64,000 nucleotides of DNA from Ruminococcus sp. (GTDB lineage: Bacteria; Bacillota; Clostridia; Oscillospirales; Ruminococcaceae). The notes under the pieces were generated by a model. That model made no database searches, was not told the origin of the DNA, and saw only the letters and a program-made list of their open reading frames with translations. The stretch is from NCBI GenBank assembly GCA_021205185.1, contig JAJPYB010000001.1, positions 1 to 64,000 on the forward strand, read 5' to 3'. The translations under genes and the position numbers were made by a program. How positions within the stretch are numbered: the first letter of the stretch is position 1; the number at the start of each line of letters is the position of its first letter. Below, piece after piece: positions 34,716 through 51,982 of this stretch.

Positions 34716-35750
34716 TTACTTTTCAGTCCAGTCGCTTGATGAGTATGTAGAAAGCGCAACGTCCGACTGAACGAACGTAGGACTTCCGTCAGCTTCATAA
34801 ACGGTTAAGAAATATGTACTCTTTAAGTCTTGCGACCAAACAGCATTCACGTTAAATGCAACTGTATCAGCGTCAAGATAAATATTTTCATCTTCCATGT
34901 AGTCAGAAAGAGTCATATCTCTATAGCCGTAAAGCATAAAGCAGCTGGTTGAAAATTCAATACTGCTTGAATAAATATCGCTCTTTTGGTCGCCTGAATA
35001 CAAAACAATCGGCATATAGTCCTTACCCATAAAGCTTATATCAAAGGCGGTTAAGTAGGACTCGTTTTCATTGACAACTATTGTTAATAATAAGCTGAGA
35101 GTTGTATTCATCTTAACATAGCTATTAGTAATTGACAAGCTGTCAACAAAAGCAACTGCTGCATCAAATTCAGACTCGCTTATATTAGCAGCTGATGAAA
35201 TTGCAGTAGCAAGCGCTGATGAGTCGGCAGCCTGATAGGCATTTTTTACGTCATCCGACTCGACAATGGAAATCAGCCTTTGCGCTAAAGAGGATTTATC
35301 CGAATACTCCACCTCTTCCTTCATTCCGCAGGAAAAACTGCACTCACCGTCGTTTCCGTCAGAGCATTCGGCCTTGACGACAACATTATAAAGGCAGGCA
35401 GTATCGTCCCTGTCAATTTCCCATGAAAGGCAAACGTCGTTTTCGTCGTTGCAAAAGTCGTAAAGAGTTAAGCCGTAGTTGCTTGAAACGGCGTCCTTTA
35501 CGCTGTCGTCGAACGAAGCGGCAGCGGATATTATACTCGCTGAAACGGCATCGGTCGTCAGAAACCTTTTAGAAGCACAGCTTGATTCAATTCCGCTTAA
35601 AAGGCTTTCCATTCTTGTGACGCAGTTTTGCCTTTTATGCGAATTGACAAAGCCTACTATATTAGGCGTGGCGATAGCGGCTACAATAACAACTATGACC
35701 AGCGTAACTATTACTTCCACAAGGGTAAAGCCCCTTTTACTGCGGTTCAT
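34716..35750 (-). CDS. Type IV pilin-like (prepilin) protein
   Basis: 344 aa. The N-terminus RGFTLVEVIVTLVIVVIVAAIA is the class III signal: peptidase cleavage before F, glutamate at +5, and the long hydrophobic helix. The remaining ~300 residues are unusually long for a pilin and Asp/Ser-rich, with cysteines that could pair. No assembly ATPase or prepilin peptidase lies nearby. Last gene after prmA and a PII-like gene. Confidence 0.8.
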   Translation of the reverse strand: MNRSKRGFTLVEVIVTLVIVVIVAAIATPNIVGFVNSHKRQNCVTRMESLLSGIESSCASKRFLTTDAVSASIISAAASFDDSVKDAVSSNYGLTLYDFCNDENDVCLSWEIDRDDTACLYNVVVKAECSDGNDGECSFSCGMKEEVEYSDKSSLAQRLISIVESDDVKNAYQAADSSALATAISSAANISESEFDAAVAFVDSLSITNSYVKMNTTLSLLLTIVVNENESYLTAFDISFMGKDYMPIVLYSGDQKSDIYSSSIEFSTSCFMLYGYRDMTLSDYMEDENIYLDADTVAFNVNAVWSQDLKSTYFLTVYEADGSPTFVQSDVALSTYSSSDWTEK

Positions 35751-37120: not shown

Positions 37121-37354
37121 AAAAACCTCCAAAAGAAAGACAAGCTTATGCGCTACCTCACTTTAAAATTTAGTATAACACATTTTAAAGGAAAAGTAAA
37201 GCAATCTTTTTGTCGGAAATTGTAACAGTGCTGCTTTCAGGGTGCCTTAAAATCGCCCTTTTTCGGCATTTCGAGAAGAAATTTGTATTTATACCCACAC
37301 AAAACTTTCATCTAACCGTCACACTGCCTTTAGGCAGATTTTAGTTTATTTTGC

Positions 37355-37412
37355 TATAATGGCTGGGAAAATGAGTACACGACTAAATAGTTTTAGCTTG
37401 TAGAGTACTCAT
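37355..37412 (+). promoter_or_regulatory. Extended -10 promoter and leader hairpin
   Basis: TGCTATAAT (37352-37360) is an extended -10 box with a poor -35. The leader holds an 8-bp stem atgagtac/gtactcat (37371-37412), ending 10 nt before the cggagg SD of the sigma-like/HlyD gene. Nothing else stands out in 37121-37435. Confidence 0.5.
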
Positions 37413-37435: not shown

Positions 37436-39199
37436 GTGGACGGCGAGATATACTTAAAAATCAAAAAAGGCAACCAAAGCGCACTTAAATCACTTTGTGA
37501 CAAGCATTTAAAACGCTCGTGGTTTATTTGCTACTATCTTACTATGAGTTCGGGTAGAGGCTCACCACTTTTAATTAAAGCCTGGAAGAAAACGCTGACT
37601 GAAATATCAGCTTCAAAAAATACGCCGAAGGAAGGCTTCGAAGAGCTTTTATACTGCAACATTCTGAAGCTTTATACCAAGGGCGTTTCAGAAGATCCGG
37701 ATTTTGAGGATATTCCCGCTCCTCACTTAAATGAAAAGTACAAACGTTTTGAGGAGGAAATAACGCTTCTCGAGGGTGACACCAAAACCGTTTATATCTT
37801 CAGCAATTACGGAAATTTGCGGGCAGACAAGCAAGCGGAAATCCTGGGGCTTACACCTGAAGAGGTTTCTTCGCTTTTAAAGCAAGCCAATAAAGAAATC
37901 AAGGAAAAGCTGCCTGTTCCTAAAAGCGAATGGACAAAAAATGTTCAGCTATTCACTTCCCTTCGGGATACAAGCAACAGCGGCTTTGCGGATATTGCAG
38001 TAGAGCCATTTTTAAGAAAATCACTGAACCACGAGGTTGGTTCTTTATTTAATAAAACCGTAACACCAGACAGAAAGGAACAGCAGCAAATGAAAAAAGA
38101 AAAGGTATCAAGCAGACCTACTACGAGTAGCACAAAGGGTATTTCAAAAAGGAACAAGAGAATTATAAAGTACGCAGTAATAGCGGCGATAGTTATAGTT
38201 GTGGTTATTCTGGGAATTATCTTTATTCCGAAAATCTTTGGAAGCAGCGATACAGCGACAAGCGTTACTACATACACAGTTGATACAGTAACAACAGGAA
38301 GCGTTGACACCACAATCAGCGGAAGCGGTACGCTCTCGCCGATTTCTCAGACGACTCTTTCAACTAATATGAGCGCTACTGTTACAGCTGTAAACTACGA
38401 GGTTGGCGACAGCGTAGACGAGGGCAACGTCATAGCAAAGGTAGAATACGAAAACGGCGAAACAGAAAGCTTTAAAGCTCCATACGATTGCGTTATAATT
38501 GAGCTTCCTGTTACTGAAGACGACGAGCTGACAGATGCAAGCGAAATTGCAATGGTTATGGGAACAGACGGCTTTACAATGGGTATTGCTGTTGATGAAA
38601 CGGATATTTCTACAATTGAAATAGGACAGGACGTAACGTTTACTATTGACGCTCTCGGCGAGGAATACGAAGGAAGCGTAACAGCTATTTCCTACAACGG
38701 CACCACAAGCGGAAGCACAACGGCATATCAGATTACAGCGACGGTTGATTACGTTGAGGGAGTATATCCCGGAATGAGTGCTTCTGCGGAGATTGTTATT
38801 GAATCAAGCGGCGAAGGACTTATTGTTCCAGTAAGCGCAGTAAGAACATCAGGCGACGACAGCTATATTTACCTTGCTCCGTCAGACGCTGAGGACGGCG
38901 ACGAGTATTCAGAGGACGAAATCGACGAATCAAGCCTCACTAAGGTTACAGTTGAAACGGGTACCTCGGACGGAAGCAATATTATAGTTGAAAGCGACGA
39001 CCTTGAAGAAGACGATTTAATAGTTATTGTTACTATCACTTCAACTCAGACAGGAAGCACCAGCGACGACAGCGACAGCACATTCGGCGGCAGAGGTGAT
39101 ATGGGCGGCGGAATGGATTTCGGCGATTTTGACTTTGAGGACTTTGATCCCAGCACCGCAGGCGGCGGCATGGGCGGAATGAACGGTAAGGGCGAATAA
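37436..39199 (+). CDS. Sigma-like domain, membrane span and HlyD adaptor fusion
   Basis: 587 aa from GTG. Residues ~1-85 resemble sigma region 2 (GNQSALKSLCDKHLKRSWF) and ~115-162 sigma region 4 with a helix-turn-helix (RADKQAEILGLTPEEVSSLL). A basic linker, one membrane span (~245-267) and an outside HlyD/MacA-type adaptor with lipoyl-like and barrel parts (~285-480) follow, then an acidic and Gly-rich tail. The adaptor matches the MacB-type ABC genes directly downstream. The sigma-like part would stay in the cytosol. It is degenerate, so promoter binding is unproven. Confidence 0.8.
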   Translation: MDGEIYLKIKKGNQSALKSLCDKHLKRSWFICYYLTMSSGRGSPLLIKAWKKTLTEISASKNTPKEGFEELLYCNILKLYTKGVSEDPDFEDIPAPHLNEKYKRFEEEITLLEGDTKTVYIFSNYGNLRADKQAEILGLTPEEVSSLLKQANKEIKEKLPVPKSEWTKNVQLFTSLRDTSNSGFADIAVEPFLRKSLNHEVGSLFNKTVTPDRKEQQQMKKEKVSSRPTTSSTKGISKRNKRIIKYAVIAAIVIVVVILGIIFIPKIFGSSDTATSVTTYTVDTVTTGSVDTTISGSGTLSPISQTTLSTNMSATVTAVNYEVGDSVDEGNVIAKVEYENGETESFKAPYDCVIIELPVTEDDELTDASEIAMVMGTDGFTMGIAVDETDISTIEIGQDVTFTIDALGEEYEGSVTAISYNGTTSGSTTAYQITATVDYVEGVYPGMSASAEIVIESSGEGLIVPVSAVRTSGDDSYIYLAPSDAEDGDEYSEDEIDESSLTKVTVETGTSDGSNIIVESDDLEEDDLIVIVTITSTQTGSTSDDSDSTFGGRGDMGGGMDFGDFDFEDFDPSTAGGGMGGMNGKGE

Positions 39200-39211
39200 T
39201 GGAGGGATAAT

Positions 39212-39889
39212 ATGATACGGCTTAAACACATTTATAAATCATACCCTCTCGGCGACGGTCAGGTTGACGTTCTTCACGATATAAGCCTGCACGTCAGAAA
39301 AAAGGAATTCGTATCTATTCTTGGGCCTTCTGGAAGCGGAAAATCAACTCTTATGAATATTATCGGCTGTCTTGACGTTCCGGATTCGGGCGATTATATT
39401 CTCGACGGAGAGTATGTTGACAATTGCACAGAGAACCAGCTTTCAGATATAAGAAGCAAGAAAATCGGCTTTATATTTCAGCAGTTTAATCTGTTGCCCG
39501 AGCTTACAGCTTATGAAAATGTTGAAATGCCGCTTTTGTATCACAAGCTGACGGCGGCTGAACGCAGAGAGCGGGTAGAGAGAACGCTTGAGCAGGTAGG
39601 ACTTACAGACAGAATGAAGCACAAGCCTAACCAGCTTTCAGGAGGTCAACAGCAAAGAGTGGCGATTGCAAGAGTCTTGGCGGCGGAGCCTTCGATAATT
39701 TTAGCTGACGAGCCTACAGGAAACCTCGACTCTACATCAAGCGCTGAAATTATGGGAATTATAAAGGAGCTTCACCAGTCAGGAAACACTATAGTTTTAA
39801 TCACGCACGACCATAATATTGCTGAGCAGGCTCAGCGCAAGGTTTATGTTCGCGACGGAGTTTTAACAGAAAGAGAGGCAGTAAAATGA
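39212..39889 (+). CDS. MacB-type ABC transporter ATPase
   Basis: 225 aa. Walker A GPSGSGKST, signature LSGGQQQR, Walker B IILADEPTGNLDS and the final ITHDHN are intact. It belongs to the MacB/LolD group. It overlaps the permease gene by 4 nt (ATGA), and with the HlyD-like protein upstream it should form an export complex. Confidence 0.95.
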   Translation: MIRLKHIYKSYPLGDGQVDVLHDISLHVRKKEFVSILGPSGSGKSTLMNIIGCLDVPDSGDYILDGEYVDNCTENQLSDIRSKKIGFIFQQFNLLPELTAYENVEMPLLYHKLTAAERRERVERTLEQVGLTDRMKHKPNQLSGGQQQRVAIARVLAAEPSIILADEPTGNLDSTSSAEIMGIIKELHQSGNTIVLITHDHNIAEQAQRKVYVRDGVLTEREAVK

Positions 39890-41046
39890 CGCTAAAAATT
39901 ATTATGCTGTCCCTCAAGGCTATATACAACAATAAAATGCGTTCCTTTCTCACTATGCTTGGAATTATAATCGGCGTTATGGCAGTTGTTATACTCGTAT
40001 CCATTACTCAAAGCGCAACAAAAGGCATAACAGACAGCATTTCGAGCATGGGAAGCGATCAGATTACCGCTACAATTTCAGACGAGGACGTTGAAATCAG
40101 CCGCGACGACGTCGAACAGCTTACAAGCAATATGTTTATTGACGGAGTAGCGCCAGTTATTTCAACCAGCGAAACTGTAAAGCATTCAAGCAACAACGGT
40201 TCATATTCGATTGTTGGCGTTACACCAGACTACTTTGACGTACTGGATATAACAATTCAAAGCGGACGTTTGATTGCCGACTCGGATATTGAATGGACAA
40301 CCGGAGTGGCTGTAATAGGCACTGAGGTTGCGACGGATTTATTTGGAACATGGGACGCAGTTGGCGGAACAATAACTATTGGCGACAGAAACTATACGGT
40401 TATAGGCGTTTTAGAGGAGCAAGGCAGCAGTCTTGTAGGCTCTGACGACAGCAAGGTTTTAATCCCCTACTCCTCCGCTGAACGAATTACAGGGCAAACA
40501 TCGGTAAACACCTTTTACATAAAGGCTTCAAGCTCAGATTTGGTGGATATGGCAATAAGTCGGGTTGAAACATTTCTTCTTCAGCTCACAGGCGACGAGG
40601 ACAGCTATTCCGTAAGCAATCAGTCGGACGTTTTAGACACAATGGAGGACGTTGACAGCACTATGTCGCTGTTGCTTGCAGGAATTGCGGCAATTTCACT
40701 TCTCGTTGGCGGAATCGGAATTATGAACATTATGCTTGTTTCCGTATCAGAGCGGACAAAGGAAATAGGAATACGCAAGGCGGTAGGCGCAAAAAGGCGG
40801 CATATTATGCTCCAATTTCTTTGCGAATCATGCATACTATCGGTTCTTGGCGGTTTAATAGGTCTTGCTTTATCGTTCGGCGTAATTGAAATTTACAACA
40901 CCGTTACTCAAAGCACTACTACTGTAAATTGGGCGATAGCATTAGCGGCGATTGCATTTTGTGCGGTAATCGGTATACTTTTCGGAAGCTACCCTGCCGC
41001 CAAGGCTTCAAGACTACAGCCAATTGACGCTTTGCACAATTCTTAA
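39886..41046 (+). CDS. MacB-type ABC transporter permease
   Basis: 386 aa with the N-terminal span (MRSFLTMLGIIIGVMAVVI), the large outside MacB_PCD domain and three C-terminal FtsX spans (GIMNIMLVSVSERTKEIGIRKAVGA). These exporters act by a mechanotransmission mechanism on peptides or lipids. The substrate is unknown. Confidence 0.95.
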   Translation: MTLKIIMLSLKAIYNNKMRSFLTMLGIIIGVMAVVILVSITQSATKGITDSISSMGSDQITATISDEDVEISRDDVEQLTSNMFIDGVAPVISTSETVKHSSNNGSYSIVGVTPDYFDVLDITIQSGRLIADSDIEWTTGVAVIGTEVATDLFGTWDAVGGTITIGDRNYTVIGVLEEQGSSLVGSDDSKVLIPYSSAERITGQTSVNTFYIKASSSDLVDMAISRVETFLLQLTGDEDSYSVSNQSDVLDTMEDVDSTMSLLLAGIAAISLLVGGIGIMNIMLVSVSERTKEIGIRKAVGAKRRHIMLQFLCESCILSVLGGLIGLALSFGVIEIYNTVTQSTTTVNWAIALAAIAFCAVIGILFGSYPAAKASRLQPIDALHNS

Positions 41047-41069
41047 AGTTGATTTTTGGGAGGTACAAT

Positions 41070-42464
41070 ATGGCAACTACAATAATTGAAAAGGCTCACA
41101 AGGGTAACCTTGAAGCTATGAAAACACTTTGTGACAAAAACGTCAAGGAGGTGCTGAATCTTTGCCAGCTGCTTCTTTGCGACGAAGCGGTTGCTCAAAG
41201 TGCAACGACAAAGCTTTTTAAGGTAACGCTTGAAAATACAGCTTCGGGATATATCACCTCTGAAGAGGAATTTCACGATTCTATTATCACAAAGACTGTA
41301 AGCTTTTGTAAAACGTACGCGTTAAAGAAAAGCTCAAAGGCGTTTGGAATGCCGAAAAATCAAAACTTTTCAGCTATAACCTACAACGCAGATAAAATGT
41401 CATTTGATGGGGAACCTTATGAGGTTATACTTAAAAATCTGCCGACGCTTCACCGCTTCATTTACGTTTTGCACACAGTTCTGGAATACAGCGATACGCA
41501 GATTGCAGAGCTTTTAAAAATCAATAAGTATGCGGTTTCAGCGGCTCTTGCGGCAGAAAGCACAAATGTTATGCGTATTCTTTTGATAATGTCTGAAACT
41601 ACCAAAAAAACGGCAAGTATGACAGCGGACGAATTCAACGAAGCTATAACAGAGAGCAAGTACGAGGTTACAGTTCCCGATTCGCTTGACGAGGCAATCA
41701 ACGAGGAAATTGACAAAGCCTGCGAGCCGATAATTAAGGAAGCTAAAAGGAAAAAGAGAAAGGAAGTATACATCACTCTTATATCAATCGTCTGTGTGAT
41801 TTTAATTTTCGGCGTTGTGTTTGCAGTTATTGCGACCTCGTCAGACGACGACTCATCAGATACAGACACAACCAGCGAAAGCTCGGAAGCAGAGGATGAG
41901 GACGAGGACGAGGATAGTGACAGCACCTACACGCCAGAGGCGCTCGACGAAACGCTAACCTACTACGCTGATATTGAAATTGAGGATTATGGCACAATTA
42001 CAATTGAGCTTGATCAGGAATCGGCGCCGATAACAGCCGCTAACTTTGTTGAGCTTGCTGAAAGCGGATTCTATGACGGACTGACCTTCCACCGCATTAT
42101 TGAAGGCTTTATGATGCAGGGCGGCGACCCGAACGGCGACGGAACGGGCGGCTCGGACAACACTATTGTTGGAGAATTTACTGACAACGGTTACGACAAC
42201 GAGCTTTCACACACAAGAGGAGCAGTATCTATGGCTCGTTCAACAGATTACGACAGCGCAAGCAGTCAGTTCTTTATCGTTCAGGAGGACAGCTCAGACT
42301 CGCTTGACGGACAGTACGCAGTATTTGGATACGTAACAGAAGGTATGGAAATAGTAGATGAAATTTGCGAAGCGGCAGAGCCTACCGACGACAACGGAAC
42401 GATTGAAGCTGAGGATCAACCCGTAATTACAAGCGTTACAATTTATACAGAGGAAGCGGAGTAA
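41070..42464 (+). CDS. Sigma-like domain, membrane span and cyclophilin fusion
   Basis: 464 aa from the ATG at 41070 (gggagg SD). Residues ~1-165 mirror the sigma-like domain of the first operon gene (GNLEAMKTLCDKNVKEVL; HTH-like YSDTQIAELLKINKYAVSAAL). A single span (~233-256) and an acidic Asp/Glu/Ser linker lead to an outside cyclophilin-type prolyl isomerase (~290-460) with FHRIIEGFMMQGG and SSQFFIV, the catalytic Arg and Gln-containing core. Located 23 nt after the permease; a terminator follows. The isomerase should fold proteins at the outer face of the membrane. Confidence 0.82.
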   Translation: MATTIIEKAHKGNLEAMKTLCDKNVKEVLNLCQLLLCDEAVAQSATTKLFKVTLENTASGYITSEEEFHDSIITKTVSFCKTYALKKSSKAFGMPKNQNFSAITYNADKMSFDGEPYEVILKNLPTLHRFIYVLHTVLEYSDTQIAELLKINKYAVSAALAAESTNVMRILLIMSETTKKTASMTADEFNEAITESKYEVTVPDSLDEAINEEIDKACEPIIKEAKRKKRKEVYITLISIVCVILIFGVVFAVIATSSDDDSSDTDTTSESSEAEDEDEDEDSDSTYTPEALDETLTYYADIEIEDYGTITIELDQESAPITAANFVELAESGFYDGLTFHRIIEGFMMQGGDPNGDGTGGSDNTIVGEFTDNGYDNELSHTRGAVSMARSTDYDSASSQFFIVQEDSSDSLDGQYAVFGYVTEGMEIVDEICEAAEPTDDNGTIEAEDQPVITSVTIYTEEAE

Positions 42465-42488
42465 GCAAAGCTCAAGCATAGAAACAAT

Positions 42489-42526
42489 AAGCGATCAGGA
42501 AAAAATCCTGGTCGCTTGAATTTTTA
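42489..42526 (+). terminator. Terminator of sigma-like/ABC operon
   Basis: 12-bp stem aagcgatcagga/tcctggtcgctt followed by gaattttta. Confidence 0.88.
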
Positions 42527-42623: not shown

Positions 42624-42654
42624 ATATTTGAAGCAGATAAAAGGAGGGATTCTT

Positions 42655-42870
42655 ATGATTGTTACTGCAACAGAATTCAAACTCAATCTCGGAAAATATC
42701 TTGCACTTGCCGAAACGGAAGACATCCTCCTTTCAAAAAATGGCAAGGTAAGCGTGAAGCTTGTAAACAACAATGTGGATCGTGTTGAAGCGATGCAGTC
42801 CCTTTTCGGATTCATTCATGCCGATATTACGGAAGAAGAAGCAAGAGAAGAAAGGCTGAGTAAAATATGA
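42655..42870 (+). CDS. Phd/YefM-type antitoxin
   Basis: 71 aa. The N-terminal TATEFKLNLGKYLALAETED and ILLSKNGKVSVKLV match the antitoxin DNA-binding fold. SD aaggaggg at the ATG chosen. It overlaps the PIN toxin gene by 4 nt (ATGA), the normal antitoxin-first order. Confidence 0.88.
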   Translation: MIVTATEFKLNLGKYLALAETEDILLSKNGKVSVKLVNNNVDRVEAMQSLFGFIHADITEEEAREERLSKI

Positions 42871-43382
42871 ACGTGATTGTTGATACCTGCGTGATTATTG
42901 ACGCCTTGCAGCAGCGTGAGCCTTTCGCAAAAGACGCACAGGACTTGTGTCTTGCTGTCGCAAAGGGTAAAATTTCCGCTTTCATTCCCGCTAAGAGCGT
43001 AGCAGACATATACCACATCATGCACCGCAGCTTGCACAGTGATGAACAGACCAGAGTGCTTTTAAAGAAGCTGTTTTTATCCTTTGGCATTCTCGATACG
43101 ACTGCACTCGATTGCAGAAATGCGCTTACATCTCCTGTTTCGGATTTCGAGGACGCCATTCTTGCCGAAAAAGTCAACCCTTACGTTATGGAATATCCCT
43201 CTACTTCTGAAATGACAGAAATTAAGATTTTCAGCGGAGAAAAACACCCATCAGAGAAACCGAATTTCTCTGATGGGTGTTATGCTTTTAATCGAGAGTC
43301 AGATTTTTTTAATGTTAAAATTGGAATACAAGCAATTATATTGATGCACTCGATTTTTTTGATTTCGCTGCCGACTGTATAA
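42867..43382 (+). pseudogene. PIN-domain (VapC-like) toxin, C-terminus replaced
   Basis: Residues 1-~110 are a PIN ribonuclease: VDTCVIIDAL with the first Asp, and VSDFEDAILAE with acidic centre residues. Relatives then continue with a TRN..DF segment holding the last metal ligand. Here that is absent and the frame runs into unrelated sequence, including a complete terminator hairpin (43243-43281), ending as 171 aa. The toxin has probably lost activity through a deletion, while the antitoxin gene stays intact. Confidence 0.75.
43243..43281 (+). terminator. Terminator read through by the toxin frame
   Basis: Perfect 17-bp stem aacacccatcagagaaa/tttctctgatgggtgtt followed by atgctttta. Confidence 0.85.
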
Positions 43383-51305: not shown

Positions 51306-51982
51306 TTGACTTCACTCTCCCTGATCACATACCCGTGTCCACGCACCGTATGCAAAAGCTTGTTTTCAAAGCCGCTGTCAATTTTCCTGCGCAAATAGCT
51401 TATATAAACGTCAACGACATTTGTTCCGCCCTCGTAATCGTAATTCCAGATGTGATCCTCAATCTTCTCACGAGAAAGCACAATCCCTGCATTATACATA
51501 AGATATTCCAGCAACGCATATTCCTTGGCAGAAAGAATTATTTCTTTGCCTCCTCGTGTAACCCTTCGTCTTGCGGGATCCATCTCTAAATCTCCAACGC
51601 AAAGCTTATTATCAGAAATACCATGCGACGTTCTTGTCATCGCACGTATCCTGGCGGTAAGCTCTTTAAAAGAAAACGGCTTTACAAGATAATCGTTAGC
51701 GCCGCTGTCAAGTCCCTTGGCCCTGTCGTCTACCGAGTCCTTTGCAGTCAAGAAAAGCACAGGAGTGCTTTTGCCACTCTCTCTTAAATACTTGAGCACC
51801 GCAAAGCCGTCGGCTCTCGGCATCATAATATCCAAAATTATTGCATCGTAATCTGTGTAGGAAAGAATATCTATAGCCTCTCTTCCGTCAAAGCAGCTGT
51901 CCACGCTATAGCCGTCGAGCGTAAGCTTTTGTGATATTATATTGTTCAGATCCTTTTCGTCCTCTGCTAAAAGTATTCTCAT
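51302..51982 (-). CDS. OmpR-family response regulator
   Basis: 226 aa from the ATG at 51982 (ggagg SD). Receiver Asp in IILDIMMPRADG (~D51) and Lys in LTAKDS; C-terminal winged helix VDVYISYLRRKID ... TVRGHGYVIRE. Partner of the adjacent kinase. Confidence 0.95.
   Translation of the reverse strand: MRILLAEDEKDLNNIISQKLTLDGYSVDSCFDGREAIDILSYTDYDAIILDIMMPRADGFAVLKYLRESGKSTPVLFLTAKDSVDDRAKGLDSGANDYLVKPFSFKELTARIRAMTRTSHGISDNKLCVGDLEMDPARRRVTRGGKEIILSAKEYALLEYLMYNAGIVLSREKIEDHIWNYDYEGGTNVVDVYISYLRRKIDSGFENKLLHTVRGHGYVIRESEVK

Follow-up and report, generated by a model that had tools for sequence, protein, structure and literature searches.

The analysed window, a stretch of 64,000 nucleotides from a Ruminococcus sp. 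contig (JAJPYB010000001.1), encodes a four-gene operon at 37436..42464 (Table 1). The four genes, all named by a first-pass annotation of this DNA, are real and co-directional on the plus strand. Genes 2 and 3 encode an ATP-binding cassette (ABC) ATPase and a permease with MacB_PCD and FtsX domains; together with the membrane-anchored HlyD-type adaptor of gene 1 they make up a MacA-MacB operon of the YknXYZ type. Such exporters have a fourth, Yip1-like subunit, YknW; Pfam found none among the four operon genes, and no search was aimed at YknW. Each end gene encodes a protein with a single predicted hydrophobic span between a cytosolic and an outside part. The first-pass annotation had proposed that both follow the same plan, with a sigma-like cytosolic part, one span and differing outside domains, and Pfam, hydropathy and structural models bear this out.

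Table 1. Features of the operon and its flanks, in window positions (AF2, AlphaFold2).
Feature	Position	Strand	Details
Operator-promoter module TTTAG-N6-TTTAG-N10-TATAAT	37329..37360	+	Recurrent upstream of related loci
Gene 1	37436..39199	+	587 aa, starts with GTG after a GGAGG; a sigma-like domain and one membrane span precede the HlyD/MacA adaptor
Sigma2-like part of gene 1, residues 1-85	37436..37690	+	AF2 model, SigW match; P-L-L...W where region 2.2 normally has its motif
Sigma4-like part of gene 1, residues 100-158	37733..37909	+	PhyR_sigma-like 1.7e-4, fold match
Conserved cytosolic segment after sigma4, gene 1 residues 160-205	37913..38050	+	Two helices, invariant His199
Internal Shine-Dalgarno core AAAGGA in gene 1	38074..38079	+	Conserved spacing to internal ATG
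Internal in-frame ATG, Met219 of gene 1	38090..38092	+	Probable start of sigma-less MacA
Membrane span of gene 1, residues 241-263	38156..38224	+	Hydropathy and AF2 model
HlyD/MacA extracytoplasmic part of gene 1	38291..39070	+	HlyD_3 3.8e-10; RND_mfp 2.5e-20, under its cut-off
MacB-type ABC ATPase	39212..39889	+	PF00005 4.3e-35
MacB-type permease	39886..41046	+	MacB_PCD and FtsX by Pfam
Gene 4	41070..42464	+	464 aa, starts with ATG; a sigma-like domain and one membrane span precede the cyclophilin
Sigma-like part of gene 4, residues 1-162	41070..41555	+	SigY model 3.9e-5, under cut-off; SigW 1.8e-5 by profile
Membrane span of gene 4, about residues 231-254	41760..41831	+	Helix in low-confidence model, hydropathy
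Cyclophilin-type prolyl isomerase domain of gene 4	41964..42395	+	PF00160 1.2e-45
Terminator-like hairpin after operon	42488..42518	+	13-pair stem; consensus scan only

The sigma-like part of gene 1 was modelled with a predicted local distance difference test score of 84.5, and its top fold matches are SigW, CnrH, SigG1, RpoE and PhyR. The gene 4 counterpart finds SigW by profile comparison. The sigma2 and sigma4 folds of an extracytoplasmic function (ECF) sigma factor are thus present, and sequence and profile comparison supports homology of the two N-termini; on both points the first-pass annotation had staked its proposal. Searches against sigma models gave a more guarded picture: PhyR_sigma-like (gene 1) and SigY (gene 4) were hit, and all sigma matches of both window proteins lie under the curated Pfam and NCBIfam cut-offs. 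Sigma70_r4_2 is detected at E<=1 in 6 of 14 gene-1 members and all four gene-4 members.

Both families have lost residues that are retained in their intact ECF relatives. We aligned 13 gene-1 and 5 gene-4 sequences with 20 intact ECF fusions from related genomes (G and L numbers are our labels for genomes and loci). The gene-1 set leaves out the near copy L125, the broken loci L129 and L145 and six sigma-less loci, and the gene-4 set holds the window, L032, L033, L034 and L139, and not L167-L169. The intact fusions were picked from 37 open reading frames (ORFs): the similar L097, L098, L105, L108, L109 and L116 were omitted for no special reason and the sporulation-type or short sigmas L117-L123 by type, and L124 shows no span since its contig ends. 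The region 2.2 Asp is found in 18/20 intact fusions and in none of the 13 gene-1 or 5 gene-4 sequences; the Gln of the same region is kept in 17/20, 2/13 and 0/5, respectively. The mean net charge of the recognition helix is +3.45 in the intact fusions (2 to 5), -0.38 in the gene-1 family (-4 to 3) and -1.0 in the gene-4 family (-3 to 0). Neither family as a whole has the region 2.2 D..QE motif or the basic -35 recognition helix of ECF sigma factors. We take these positions to be the contacts to core RNA polymerase (RNAP) and the -35 element, as in structures of the sigma70 family. The stretch from sigma2 to sigma4 is also about 21 residues shorter in the gene-1 family than in the intact fusions. 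Judged by these residues, both end proteins seem defunct as sigma factors, and the domain, here called a pseudo-sigma, presumably no longer binds RNAP or promoters.

A sigma fold without sigma function is found in PhyR, whose sigma-like domain titrates the anti-sigma NepR. The pseudo-sigma could likewise titrate an anti-sigma, with the level or state of the exporter setting the activity of a real ECF sigma, a proposal that we consider unlikely. The PhyR sigma-like domain is the best Pfam match of gene 1, a weak sequence match (1.7e-4) joined by the fold match, and the gene 1 model lies closest to compact anti-sigma-bound forms (SigW-RsiW). In addition, an ECF-type sigma gene of the genome (L042) adjoins the gene of a membrane protein that looks zinc-finger-like by eye. 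However, the PhyR matches may mean a common fold only, the window proteins are membrane-anchored, and Pfam found no Response_reg receiver domain in gene 1 or gene 4. A sigma with a fused anti-sigma part was considered as well: following sigma4, the stretch I.VP..L..AL resembles anti-sigma N-termini, and some sigma-gene matches extended past the stop into the next gene. Scored apart, an RsgI-type anti-sigma N-terminus gained only 3.1 bits in L172 and 0.9 bits in L174, and on its own it reached E values of 5.9, 27 and 51. No zinc-finger or other anti-sigma Pfam family was found between sigma4 and the span at E<=1.

The gene-1 fusion recurs in several genera of gut Clostridia. A gene-1 profile matched 97 of 396 family genomes at E 0.001; 11 of these are strong (best E below 1e-50), the next best match is 7.4e-8, and the weaker matches that were opened are mostly ECF or sporulation-type sigmas. 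A search with the HlyD part returned the same 11 strong genomes, nine with an intact sigma part and two (G115 and G027) with a broken one, and five further weak matches, all without a sigma part. A scan of named genomes yielded 21 loci, including Massiliimalia timonensis, Candidatus Soleaferrea, Gallacutalibacter, Acutalibacter, Ruminococcus sp. and uncultured Clostridia; it overlaps the family survey, and 10 of the 11 strong genomes recur in it as L125, L126, L128-L130, L134-L137 and L145. The 21 loci comprise 13 intact fusions, two broken ones (L129, L145) and six that are sigma-less (L138, L140-L144). The sigma part has a frameshift and a stop in L129 (7001-7700) and a frameshift in L145 (6900-7200), and both retain the internal MacA start described below and the exporter genes. 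ATPase and permease are present in all 20 loci examined and also in L125, with the permease split in L137. The sigma part, broken or absent in 8/21 loci, is therefore not essential to the pump. In HlyD and permease trees the sigma-less and broken loci are scattered among the fused ones (5 changes, root unsure), which points to repeated gain or loss.

Such a pattern would fit an accidental gene fusion whose sigma part has little function, as would the faster divergence of the sigma part relative to HlyD, the two broken and six sigma-less orthologous loci and the mixing of presence and absence in the tree. We nevertheless judge a mere passenger improbable. The ratios of nonsynonymous to synonymous change (dN/dS, NG86 method) of the sigma part in six gene-1 pairs are 0.075, 0.21, 0.137, 0.225, 0.134 and 0.407, a seventh pair being saturated, and those of the HlyD part are 0.049-0.23; the pairs have members in common and in several cases a proportion of synonymous differences (pS) near 0.7. 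The segment after sigma4 (residues 160-205) has the lowest or tied dN/dS among the measurable sigma parts in seven pairs. The residues that do not vary in 14 gene-1 sequences include Trp29, Trp50, Gly126 and His199, and the sigma part is intact in 9 of the 11 strong HlyD matches. The sigma-like domain is still under purifying selection.

The window's gene 1 differs from that of L125 at synonymous sites by 0.05-0.08, against 0.20-0.28 in the three genes behind it, as if there had been recent exchange or nucleotide-level constraint.

Gene 1 carries a second candidate ribosome-binding site. AAAGGA lies just before the span, 16 bases upstream of an in-frame ATG (Met219, 38090). Of 12 tabulated fused loci (L125 and L133 excluded), 10 have it at exactly this distance. 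Duplex energies of the internal Shine-Dalgarno (SD) site in these ten, computed with a single anti-SD string for every species, are near -10.3 kcal/mol, within the range of the main starts; other start codons in the sigma part that are equally good number 0 to 2 per gene, and 4 in L137. The same letters and spacing precede the real macA start in five of six sigma-less loci (L143 has AAAGGA closer to the ATG) and the same ATG in both broken loci (L129 and L145). Of 11 Lys codons within the site, 10 are AAG, against 4.7 expected (P 0.0009 if lineages are independent), and in L132, L135 and L139 the residues at the site have changed and a strong SD is kept. The simplest reading of this pattern is that a pseudo-sigma ORF stands before macA and reads through its start, which would still work. 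The Met219 start is presumably used in the cell, and gene 1 seems able to make the pump part with or without the sigma-like domain.

The operon is preceded by a recurrent promoter module. Of 21 loci, 16 carry TTTAG-N6-TTTAG in the 330 bases upstream, against a mean of 0.018 in mononucleotide shuffles; the 21 are the window plus 20 of the 21 named-scan loci, L132 being omitted as its contig begins too close and the start of L143 being approximate. The module is found in 11/13 intact fusions, 2/2 broken loci and 3/6 sigma-less loci. A TATNAT-like -10 element follows at a fixed 10-base distance in all 16, with TA at its first two positions and T at its last in 16/16; these loci were selected by the TTTAG repeat, and only the -10 spacing is independent. 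The window's version of the module is the single match in its own genome. A response-regulator gene and a kinase-like gene adjoin 11 of the 21 named-scan loci, and ten linked regulators that were compared are 65-95% alike. Pfam confirms both members of the pair in L126 and, in L128, the kinase; the other kinases rest on size and spans, and the L131 regulator reads as two ORFs. In the window's genus no such pair was seen beside the operon, and the nearest regulator in the window's genome (L146) is 46-51% alike to the linked ones. The module and the linked regulator pairs suggest that the operon is probably under two-component system control.

The window holds a second regulator/kinase-like pair at about 49.9-52 kb on the minus strand, with a regulator (51314-51982) that is 36-40% like the linked regulators.

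These data bear on the coupling to transcription suggested in the first-pass annotation. A working membrane-held sigma could be released or exposed once its outside domain detects export or envelope trouble, bind RNAP and switch genes on. The same bacterial family has intact ECF sigma-span-outside-domain proteins, so that an ancestor may have worked in this way, and the ECF sigma IutY is activated by proteolysis of its fused membrane extension (PMC8999054). We regard a working sigma as quite improbable here: both families have lost these residues in region 2.2 and in the recognition helix, the gene-1 domain is shortened, the conserved promoter module suits a response regulator, and nothing found in the promoter and neighbourhood data points to autoregulation by the sigma parts. 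The proposed coupling via RNAP is not supported. A membrane DNA-binding regulator like CadC, with the sigma4-like helix-turn-helix binding an operator without RNAP, would suit the retained fold and the Sigma70_r4_2 matches, but is very unlikely given recognition helices whose mean net charge is below zero in both families, against the basic intact ones.

Gene 4 belongs to a family of its own. Full sigma-span-cyclophilin proteins occur in the window's genus, G076, G166, G182, G480, G561, G528 and L139, and a split form in G576 (L171:931-2658) consists of a sigma-like protein ending in a C-terminal span, followed by a separate membrane cyclophilin gene. In the stretches examined, gene 4 lies directly behind MacB genes only in the window's genus and L139. 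Of eight lineages with the gene-4 family (one split), six have no adjoining MacB operon within the 9.5-15.5 kb examined; two of these six, G561 and G576, encode an ABC ATPase of lower similarity (39% and 28% identity, respectively) about 4 kb away. Conversely, only L125 and L139 of the 13 intact gene-1 loci of the named scan have gene 4. The four genes taken as a conserved unit do not hold up on these counts; as gene 4 is mostly away from MacB, the unit brings together two fusion families that evolve separately. Association with a MacB exporter recurs across genera for gene 1 and was seen in the window's genus and L139 for gene 4. Genes 1 and 4 are paired in L139, where gene 1 is 29% identical to the window over the sigma part, which argues that the two belong together at times.

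L036 (5577-6380) encodes a 267-aa protein with a distant gene-4-like N-terminus, in which Pfam found no sigma domain, and a span near the C-terminus. Next to it lie two genes that in size and spans resemble a regulator and a kinase.

Two neighbouring features of the window were noted by eye. A small antitoxin-like and PIN-like gene pair (42628-43382, from the ORF list) lies behind the operon, and a pilin-like protein with an N-terminal GFTLVEVIVTL motif is encoded at 34716-35750 on the minus strand.

The first-pass annotation knew of no described system with this plan, which is correct in part. ECF sigmas with C-terminal transmembrane extensions are known, namely ECF48, ECF52 (e.g. SCO4117), ECF53 and IutY of ECF243 (PMC8999054); in the literature searched we found no description of exporter-adaptor, cyclophilin or permease fusions to sigma domains, subscription papers being outside the reach of the search. 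Like these sigmas, the window proteins join an ECF-like domain, a span and a further part in one chain. The former are described as sigmas with a fused anti-sigma part, whereas the window proteins have lost residues that intact ECF relatives keep, have no zinc-finger anti-sigma domain by Pfam and carry an exporter adaptor or a cyclophilin outside. YknXYZ and SpMacAB (MacB-type, type VII, Gram-positive) likewise encode a MacA-like adaptor, an ATPase of its own and a MacB_PCD/FtsX permease together in an operon (PMC5985334; see also PMC4887032 and PMC5768738); the window's adaptor adds a sigma-like N-terminus, the internal start and a promoter module of response-regulator type. With membrane or secreted cyclophilins gene 4 shares a Pro_isomerase domain, found by Pfam, outside a single span. 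Gene 4 is in addition fused to a pseudo-sigma, and the split L171 keeps the two as neighbouring genes. The kind of architecture already known is thus the membrane-fused ECF; what is unusual is a version that looks polymerase-defective by its residues, sits on an exporter and has a conserved second start site.

We favour, with moderate confidence, a pseudo-sigma module on a response-regulator-controlled MacA-MacB exporter with dual adaptors and an isomerase placed at the pump. The cytosolic part of both end proteins would be descended from an ECF sigma, with its fold kept and selected and binding to RNAP and promoters lost. An OmpR-type response regulator would switch on the exporter. The pseudo-sigma ORF of gene 1 would run in frame into macA while an internal ribosome site still yields plain MacA, and the cell would make two adaptors, with and without the pseudo-sigma. 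At the cytosolic end of MacA the module would most likely tune or dock the exporter. Gene 4 would put a like module on an outside prolyl isomerase, probably placing a folding helper at the pump. We infer the response-regulator control, the action on MacB and the docking of the isomerase. Escherichia coli MacA deleted for its cytosolic region or its transmembrane helix (TMH) was impaired in stimulating the MacB ATPase, and pneumococcal MacA that lacked the two gave no stimulation (PMC5985334). A docking or tuning role is favoured because the pseudo-sigma sits at this ATPase-stimulating end, and MacA made from the internal start would lack it.

Several observations weigh against this pseudo-sigma exporter reading. 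The internal site is shifted in L139 (AGGAGG) and weak in L137 (-6.0), no internal start was found in L133, the gene-4 family has no comparable conserved internal start, and the conserved internal SD may be a remnant of an old gene start. The loss of residues is an indirect sign of lost RNAP binding, and the recognition helix is still net positive in some gene-1 members (up to +3). Taken whole, the sigma part has a dN/dS that exceeds the HlyD value by a factor of about 1.5 to 2.6, and the part is broken in 2/21 and absent in 6/21 loci. The promoter module is missing in the fused loci L136 and L137 and in the sigma-less L141, L143 and L144.

The matches of the gene-1 profile also included many intact ECF sigmas of the same bacterial family that carry a span followed by outside domains. 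Their outside domains include BspA-type LRR_5 (L089), CAP (L091), RCC1 (L094), SdrD_B/CarboxypepD_reg (L096), Ig-like/Big_13 (L099) and DUF2963; L092 and L106 are further intact ECF-span fusions, and in genus g42 several occur per genome (G146, G215). Three proteins of 1134-1182 aa fuse an ECF sigma to an FtsX/MacB-type permease (L097:445-3966, L101:3551-6955, L109:1532-5080). They are 37-46% identical to one another; Pfam places sigma70_r2, r4 and FtsX of L101 above the cut-off and MacB_PCD below it, and L097 and L109 were assigned by homology to L101. Each sigma-permease gene is followed, with an overlap, by the gene of an ATPase that is about 43% alike to that of the window (the L097 copy is cut by the contig end). 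The sigma-permease proteins are possibly a one-piece sensor from transporter to transcription. The literature search found no description of intact ECF sigmas with leucine-rich repeat, RCC1, CAP, Ig-like or permease outside parts. Sigma-derived domains may have been wired into MacB-type exporters at least twice: the intact ECF on the permease (L097, L101, L109) as a one-piece flux sensor through which the transport state would programme RNAP, and on the adaptor a pseudo-sigma dead for RNAP that would serve as its matching brake or competitor, in a dose set by the internal start. This is a speculation that we think rather unlikely to be right.

Sigma factors are usually thought of as subunits of RNAP. 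In the gene-1 family the sigma fold looks repurposed as a membrane-anchored exporter module, conserved across genera after the loss of residues, and the in-frame internal start would give the adaptor with and without it. The finding points to a set of intact ECF sigmas in this bacterial family that are welded to membrane spans and varied outside domains.

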